DNA from: a virus
Length of the DNA: 48,804 nucleotides
IMG/VR virus record: IMGVR_UViG_3300021379_001015
Coordinates: 1 to 48,804 of that record
Strand: one strand, 5' to 3'
Below are positions 4,275 through 36,380 of this stretch, piece after piece; position 1 is the stretch's first letter, and each line of letters opens with the position of its first letter. The notes beneath the pieces are model-generated. The model saw nothing but the letters and a program-made list of their open reading frames with translations. It did no database searches and was not told the origin of the DNA. Position numbers and translations under genes: made by a program.

Positions 4275-4299
4275 CTATAGTTTCTCCTTAATACACAAG

Positions 4300-4307
4300 T
4301 ATTTATC
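4300..4307 (-). promoter_or_regulatory. Late promoter for gp19 (GATAAATA)
   Basis: The minus strand reads GATAAATACTTGTG, giving a leader of about 20 nt that contains AAGGAG ahead of the gp19 ATG at 4274. It lies just downstream of the gp18-gp19 intercistronic hairpin. Confidence 0.65.
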
Positions 4308-4311
4308 ATTT

Positions 4312-4338
4312 GTAGGGGGTTTTTGTTTCACCCCCTAC
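4312..4338 (-). terminator. Perfect 9-bp intercistronic hairpin between gp18 and gp19
   Basis: GTAGGGGGT (4312-4320) pairs perfectly with ACCCCCTAC (4330-4338) around a 9-nt loop. On the minus strand it starts 9 nt after the gp18 stop but lacks a T run. It may be a weak terminator, an mRNA 3'-end stabiliser or a processing site rather than a classical intrinsic terminator. Confidence 0.6.
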
Positions 4339-4347
4339 TTTATGATA

Positions 4348-7300
4348 TTAAAGACCTGCGATCTCGCCTGTGTTTTTGATACGTAGTGGAATATAGATAA
4401 ATTCTACTGCTTTGACTGGTTCAATAGCAATATCTACGTATAGTTCGTTTCTATCGATTCTTGCTGGTGTGTTGTTTGTTTCATCACATACAACTAAGAA
4501 GTCAAATAGTGCTCTAAGTCCAACTAGTTCAACTAGCAAACTTTCTACCTGTTGCTTGATTTCATCACGTGTGATTTTATCATTTGGTTCAAATAGATAT
4601 GGTTTTGCTAGTGTGTTAAGTTGGCTACGTAAATATACTACCAATCTTGCTACGTTGATTCTATCCAATGCACTTGCATTTCTTGCACGAGTTTTCTGTC
4701 CAAATACAACTAATCCTGCTCCTGTTAGGAATGTAATCGGATTTACGTTGTTTGAGTACAGTGTATCTCTTACGCCTTCGTTAAGTGCTGTTGCAACAAA
4801 CTCACCTTCGCCGTTAATATAACCTGTTGATGTTGCGTTTGTTACGCCGCCACGTCTTGTACCTGCTGGTGCAAACCATGGATAAGCAACTTGATCATTT
4901 AATGCAAATGTGCGTAGTACCATGTGCGATGCTGGAACAACAATGTTGTTGCCTGCGTTGTCACTTGTGAAACCACTTGGATAATATACACCTAAGTATT
5001 CATCTCTACTTACAAGACCGTTATCGTTATCTTCTACAACTGTATTAACGTTTGTTGCCCATTCGTTAAGTGAAGTTGCATCTGATGTCAAACGCATTGG
5101 AGAGTCACCAATAACAAATGCTGTTAAGCCTCTGTCATAGTTTAGTGTGATCATCTCGCCAATCAGTTCTGGATAACCTGGAGTTGCAATCAAGTTAAAG
5201 ATACGTGACTCGTCATCACGGATATCTTGGTTCTCGTTTAGCATTGCTTGTAACGCTTGTACAACAACTTTACGCTGTGCTTTACGTCCAAAGCTACCTG
5301 AGCCATCTGCTTCATTAGCTGACTCTGTTACCCAACGGTGTGGATAGTATCCTGCCATTGAATTGCCGTCGTCACTTCCTCTGCCATTGTTTGCACTAAT
5401 ATCAATATAGTTACGCTCGAAACGTTTTACGTTGAATCCGCTTCTACGTAGGTTCCATAGCAACATACCTTTTGGATATAGTGCTGGATCTGGAGCATCT
5501 GGATCTAAGTAATCACTTGCTAGTAGATCTGCAATATCTCCTGCTTCGCCGCTGTTTGCACCTGCTGTATTGTAACGTGCATCAGCAAAGATAATACCGT
5601 TTTCTGTTGTTTGGTCAGTTGTGTCCAACTCAATCCATGAACTCAATGTTGCATTCCAACGATATACTCTTGGGAAGTTTTCTAAATCTGCTGTGCTTAC
5701 CCATAAGTCGCCTGTTACTAGATCAGTAGTACCATCTGACTGTTTTGTTGGCTCAGTTGCACTTACAATAGGTCCTGCTGGATCTGCACTTGCATATTCG
5801 TTCAAGTAACCTTTCCAGTCTGATCCGTCATGTACCATGATATCAACTTCGTCAATTACGCTGCTGTACCATAATGCGCCATCTTCTGCTAGTGCAGTTG
5901 GTGCTTCATCACTTGCTGTGTATGTAAGCTCTTTCCAAAGACTTGCAACATAATCACTGCCACCTAAACTATAGAAGTTTGCAGTTCCTGTGCTGTTTGT
6001 GTAGTTCCATGCTGGGAACGCCATTACAAATTTGCTGTTTGTGTCAGTAATTCTAATGTCACCGCCAAGTGCGTGTGTAATGATAACTTTGTTACCTGTA
6101 CCAACACTTGCACTAACATTTGTTAGTCCTGCTGCGTTAATTGCTTCAGCAAGATCATCTGCATCATCTGCTGTACCTGCTGCTGTAAATGATACTGTAA
6201 CCGATGTGCTCATTGTTGCACTACCTTTTACACTTTCACTAATTGTAAAGTCGCCAGTACCGCTAGTAATTGTGCCGGTTCCAATTGCTACGCTTGTTAT
6301 GCTTGTTGCACCAGCACCATTTCTTTTGAAGATTGTAAAATCTGCTAGATTAGTTGCTGCTTCAGTAACATTAGTTTGAATGTACAAGTTTGCACTTGTT
6401 AAGTTTGCACCGCCACCTGATAAATCAAGTCCTGCTAATGCTGCATGGTTAGTTGCATAAATTGGTGCTAATGATGTGTCCCAAAGTGCTGTATCTTCGT
6501 TCCATACTTTTACGCTCCAGTTTGCACCTGCGTTTGGTGTTGTTGTTTTAACCCAAACACTGCCTGTTGGTCTTGGAGTTGTGTCACCTGATTTATATTC
6601 TGGAACACTTGTATGCGCACTTGCTTGCAATTTAGGAGCATAATAATCAGTTGCACCTGTTAAACCTGCATCTGCTAAAATTGTTCCTGTTGCAGCAAAT
6701 TCAAAACCATCATGTGACGAACCGTCGTTGTAGAACTCCAGTCTGTTGCTTACAACTGCTGCACTGATACCTGAACCTGTTGCTGCTGCATTAAAGTCAA
6801 TTACAAACTGTGCTGGAGTATTTCCTGTTAATGCAAATGTAAAGATTTGCGTTGCACCGTCTGTCTCATTTACAGTGAAGTTATCACCCGGAACAAAAGG
6901 AGTTGGAGTCATAGCATATGATTTAGTGCTTGTCACTGATGGCCAACTTGCTTTCCAGTCTGCACTTCCTACTACTACCCAAGTGCCTGCTGTGTTTTTA
7001 TAATATAATGTTGGTACTGTTGTTACTGCAACTAATGCATAGTCACCAACTGCGCCTACTGATCCTTTTGGTGTATAATCTTCACCTGCAAAATCTACAA
7101 CTTTTGTTGTGTCTGTTACAACAATAGGTGTTTTACCTGAGAATGATTGTCCTGTTGTGTTAGAAATATCAACAGCACTTCCGTTCCATTCAAAGACGCC
7201 GTATCTGCTTGTTGCTGTGTCTAACCAGTATGTTCCGCCTGCTGGATCAGCAGTTGTTGCAGTTGAACTTGCATTTAACCCATTCAGATCAATATCTGCA

Positions 7301-36090: not shown

Positions 36091-36123
36091 AAAAAAAGGC
36101 CTGCAATTATGTTGCAGACCTTT
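36091..36123 (-). terminator. Rho-independent terminator of the orphan RNA
   Basis: On the minus strand an AAAGGTCTGCAA arm pairs with TTGCAGGCCTTT (one mismatch, 5-nt loop), followed by an uninterrupted seven-T run. It is one of the strongest intrinsic terminators in the window and does not follow a protein gene. Confidence 0.88.
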
Positions 36124-36346
36124 CTCTATTAATGTGATAGGTAGGACTAAGGATTACCTACAAGTGCCGTGACATATCCTGTCTACATAACTAGCACAAC
36201 CTCACAATAGAATGGTTAGTTCTACTTTCTCTGCAACGCCTTGTCTCCAAGGTCTTACAGCGCCACCATAGCGTGTGAGTCAAGTTAATGCCTATGTGAA
36301 GCATCGTTTCCTTGCACTATCTAACTCGGACCGTCGTCTTTGTTAT
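36091..36346 (-). ncRNA. Orphan structured RNA, about 250 nt
   Basis: This is the only long stretch without a plausible protein gene. It has a sigma70-type promoter at one end and an intrinsic terminator at the other. Several helices can be drawn on the minus-strand RNA. A 10-bp helix with a 3-nt bulge (36202-36211 with 36125-36137) closes a three-way junction. That junction holds hairpins at 36164-36197 (GUGC/GCAC and inner GACA/UGUC) and 36141-36161 (GUAGG/CCUAC). A separate hairpin at 36231-36260 has a CCUUG/CAAGG stem capped by a GAGA (GNRA) tetraloop. GUUAG (36321-36325) can pair with CUAAC (36215-36219) to enclose the 5' domain. I do not recognise a known family; tRNA, tmRNA and RNase P RNA hallmarks are absent. 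Start and function are inferred. Confidence 0.7.
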
Positions 36347-36352
36347 GTACTT

Positions 36353-36380
36353 AATATAGCATATACAAAATAAAAGTCAA
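36353..36380 (-). promoter_or_regulatory. Sigma70 promoter with extended -10 for the orphan RNA
   Basis: On the minus strand TTGACT (36375-36380) and TATATT (36353-36358) are separated by 16 nt, with TGC directly before the -10 (extended -10). The predicted start is about 36346-36348. It differs from the T4-type late promoters elsewhere, suggesting early or constitutive expression by host holoenzyme. Confidence 0.75.

Follow-up and report, generated by a model that had tools for sequence, protein, structure and literature searches.

The minus strand of a T4-like phage fragment of 48,804 bases, the whole of which is referred to here as the window, encodes a member of the manA RNA family (Rfam RF01745). 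As judged by comparison with related loci, this RNA is probably the product of an independent, single-copy phage noncoding RNA gene that has its own promoter and, in the lineage of the window, usually its own terminator, and that would act in trans. The family was described in 2010 as cis-regulatory and a probable riboswitch (PMC2864571), its Rfam type is Cis-reg (5′-UTR element, candidate riboswitch), and the S-CREM1 paper repeats the cis-regulatory/riboswitch view while calling its verification open.

The major head protein of the window is at most 69.5% identical to those of isolates, and a phage portal protein and large tail-fibre proteins are also encoded. All of the elements considered here lie on the minus strand between a cold-shock-like gene of 64 aa (36580 to 36386) and the next gene (35967 to 35605), whose product begins MGRP. 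Following the upstream gene are a sigma70-type promoter (36380 to 36353), identified by a promoter scan and its conservation in relatives; the full-length manA RNA (36340 to 36131), identified by an Rfam match and covariation; and an intrinsic terminator (36124 to 36091), identified by folding and by the terminators of relatives. Together, the promoter, structured body, and terminator delimit a transcription unit with a predicted length of about 255 nt. Outside this unit are the late-promoter motif of the next gene (36060 to 36052), recognized by its sequence and by comparison among relatives, and a freshwater-2 RNA (RF02980; 36036 to 35965), which is the next gene's leader and sits between the late-promoter motif and that gene.

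The earlier note on this DNA had stated that the RNA matched no family known to its author, a statement overturned by the Rfam search that it called for. In a permissive Rfam scan, the body matched the whole manA model (positions 1 to 192) with 52.0 bits and an E value of 1.7e-12. The match was repeated in a genome search (E value of 3.6e-14), in which the model had no matches in 14 control genomes. Because 52.0 bits is below the gathering cutoff of 55.2, a default Rfam scan misses the manA RNA and reports only the freshwater-2 RNA, which at 51.6 bits is above its own cutoff of 49.9. Searches by blastn with the region and with the RNA yielded no matches in the phage collection. Matches to Thr_leader, STnc370, MicC, and Esr41 were below the respective cutoffs, overlapped the terminator hairpin, and were treated as chance.

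Related loci were collected with sequence patterns; the pattern for the conserved 3′ hairpin retrieved at least 119 stretches in IMG/VR, and a pattern for the 5′ part of the window's clade retrieved 114. The family comprises two clades. Clade A, from marine cyanophages, has the closing helix GGGAG/CUCCC and full-length matches of 146 to 174 bits, whereas clade B, to which the window belongs, has the closing helix (P2) GAUAG/CUAUC and scores of 27 to 58 bits, with 11/25 records above the gathering cutoff. The window RNA resembles other manA RNAs in aligning over the full model, in having the same helices and the conserved 3′ hairpin motif TGTNGGTANNCNNTANTCCNACCTNNCAC, and in its occurrence in a T4-like phage, but it belongs to a diverged clade, and with its promoter and terminator it forms a gene apart rather than part of a 5′ UTR. 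One locus (L242, positions 4281 to 4405) has two copies of the 3′ motif CCTACCTCCCACCCTT, suggestive of a partial duplication of the manA end.

The minimum free energy fold of the window unit contains both a three-way junction and a hairpin with a GAGA cap, in agreement with the three-way junction and GNRA-capped hairpin described in the earlier note. The unit as a whole is stably folded (z score of −4.17), but this stability stems largely from the terminator, and the body by itself shows no unusual stability (z score of −0.86); the evidence for structure is therefore homology and covariation rather than energy. Covariation in homologs, a check proposed in the earlier note, was assessed with 58 distinct clade-B sequences aligned by MAFFT, using a structure that combined the Rfam alignment with the window fold. 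In total, 88.7% of the cells were paired and 24 pairs had changed on both sides, and the covariation score of 0.288 exceeded both that of shuffles (0.114) and those obtained with slid partners (0.080 or less). The manA helices are thus conserved with compensatory changes, and two pairs of the closing helix are exchanged between the clades. Helices 5, 8, and 10 were paired in just 55 to 66% of the cells of this alignment; inspection suggests that helix 5 is off by one base in part of it. In the window, helix P1 has only 3 bp. The outermost brackets in the Rfam alignment were read as a nested closing helix, not as the pseudoknot described in 2010.

It is very improbable that the stretch encodes a small protein or lacks a function. 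Small hypothetical ORFs that overlap manA are annotated in some isolate records, among them PSSM4_169.1 of P-SSM4, SSSM5_127 of S-SSM5, PHM1_121 of P-HM1, and PHM2_011/012 of P-HM2. The 58 relatives, however, share no conserved frame, in line with the earlier observation that the stretch between the promoter and the terminator lacks a good one: their longest ORFs averaged 29 aa, compared to 27 aa in shuffles, and no conserved small protein was found in the homologous regions. The covariation and the full-length RNA-family match also stand against this explanation, and the annotated small proteins are probably not real genes.

The promoter of the window consists of TTGACT, a 16-nt spacer, and TATATT, with an extended −10 (TGc), and transcription would start near position 36346. 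A single match of this quality is within chance, given that 21 promoter-like sites were found where 25.6 were expected. Its conservation, unlike the single match, is beyond chance. A sigma70-type promoter with at least 9/12 matches precedes manA at all 60 clade-B and all 61 clade-A distinct loci, and 119 of these 121 loci have at least 10/12 matches, a level reached by 2.7% of random 75-mers; the cutoffs and locus classes were chosen in this analysis, and because the loci are related, their counts do not represent independent trials. The promoter region lay outside the patterns used to collect the loci. In both clades, the −10 element ends 27 to 32 nt before helix P2. The promoter was also read directly in 11 of 12 cyanophage genome records, the 12th being unmatched by the pattern used, and a similar −10 is present at a similar distance from manA in a Photobacterium chromosome; the manA copies of Acidimicrobiales have no evident promoter of their own. 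At 26/59 clade-A loci (e.g., L016, L017, and L018), a terminator-like hairpin carries the −35 element TTGACA in its loop, as in GGAGGGC-TTGACA-CCCTCC-T7; sequence therefore seems to be shared between the end of one unit and the beginning of manA.

At the other end of the unit, a 13-bp hairpin of −17.1 kcal/mol is followed by a U run (36124 to 36090; z score of −5.8). An intrinsic terminator was found within 60 nt of manA at 38/54 clade-B loci and within 200 nt at 47/54, and none was detected after manA at the remaining 7. Among the 47 terminator-bearing loci, 44 have a late-promoter motif no more than 130 nt past the terminator (background of 1.7%), and 42 have a freshwater-2-like stretch 3′ of it. 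In the window, this motif is GATAAATAC, from which the manA promoter differs, as the earlier note had observed for late promoters nearby. The order of promoter, manA, hairpin with a T run, and TAAATA motif recurs in P-HM1 and MED4-213. A conserved-looking stretch (around GTAAC.AGAAAGGA, in some cases CGCCCGTTGGAGGCCACGGTTAGCCTCC) was observed 3′ of manA at five loci where no close terminator was detected (L159, L176, L187, L197, and L201). The central claim of the earlier note, that a structured RNA stands alone here between a sigma70-type promoter and a terminator of its own, is supported by homology, covariation, the conserved promoter, and the clade-B terminators.

Exactly one manA was found in each of 12 cultured cyanophage genomes, with differing neighbors: gp23, pstS, regA, ferredoxin, pebS (annotated phycoerythrobilin), or the nrdB region upstream and gp32, purL, talC, or hypothetical genes downstream. 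A tRNA gene lies directly 3′ of manA at 11 clade-A loci, and manA is located within a tRNA array in two Acidimicrobiales MAG contigs. Because the neighbors vary while the RNA and its promoter are kept, a gene of its own fits better than a leader. The cold-shock-like gene is directly upstream at only part of the related loci, others having gp23, an S21-like protein, ferredoxin, or other genes, and the window gene itself matches the Pfam cold-shock domain weakly (E value of 0.002; 18.4 bits against a cutoff of 27). The earlier suggestion that this gene encodes a dedicated partner of the RNA was rejected because the upstream gene is not constant. At L159, L172, L174, L176, and L187, the small gene directly upstream, recognized by eye from its translation, resembles that of ribosomal protein S21.

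The published classification and the Rfam class would instead have manA regulate the downstream gene in cis, as a leader or riboswitch, with the window terminator serving as its expression platform, an explanation that we consider unlikely. In its favor is clade A, where at 52/66 loci the first element scored downstream was an ORF that no detected terminator preceded, and the ORF, often gp32, is frequently 27 to 98 nt from manA; a leader role is possible at these loci for that reason. Against it, manA is present once per genome, and the genes that follow change and include tRNAs. Nor is the RNA placed in a 5′ UTR in the window, where the terminator and a separate late-promoter motif intervene before the next gene; the same applies to the 44 of 47 terminator-bearing clade-B loci that have such a motif and to the 11 clade-A loci that lead into a tRNA. 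Conserved antiterminator pairing was looked for and not found: complementarity between manA and the terminator arm had a mean longest run of 5.36, compared to 5.12 with shuffled arms. Less probable still is a 5′-end element that affects RNA polymerase or RNA decay in cis, i.e., a put-like antiterminator or 5′ stabilizer. It would account for an RNA that in both clades starts very near the inferred transcription start and that in clade A usually precedes genes without an early terminator, but it sits poorly with a single copy per genome and with clade B, where a terminator usually follows within tens of bases, along with a separate late-promoter motif.

For an independent RNA gene, we propose that a host-type sigma70 polymerase would initiate at the manA promoter, a few bases upstream of helix P1, and copy the structured body closed by helix P2. 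In the lineage of the window, transcription would stop at the adjacent terminator and yield the predicted RNA of about 255 nt, which would not simply be the next gene's leader, since that gene is preceded by a late-promoter motif of its own. The same promoter-RNA cassette lies ahead of tRNAs or mRNAs in marine cyanophages, where processing could release the RNA, possibly through RNase P at the tRNA 5′ end. During infection, the RNA may then act in trans on machinery of the host or of the phage, as suggested by the lack of a constant downstream element and by the terminator that usually closes the clade-B unit. No manA expression data were found in the cyanophage expression literature, of which main texts and few subscription journals were covered.

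GOLLD and ROOL are structured bacterial and phage RNAs that likewise adjoin no fixed protein-coding target and are in some cases near tRNA genes; they are far larger than manA, and no sequence-family relation was found here. Species C and D of T4, with which the earlier note drew an analogy, are small stable RNAs of a T4-like phage; no Rfam or sequence link between them and manA was found.

Whether the entire family lies outside the riboswitch/leader class and consists of promoter-driven, single-copy, trans-acting RNAs that have a general role in infection by T4-like phages of aquatic bacteria, we regard as an even bet. Although manA has been a candidate riboswitch since 2010, no ligand is reported in the literature searched. 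If manA is a free RNA transcribed from a promoter of its own in abundant marine phages, binding partners rather than ligands should become the object of the search, and testing would be practical in cultured Prochlorococcus phages, such as P-HM1 and MED4-213.
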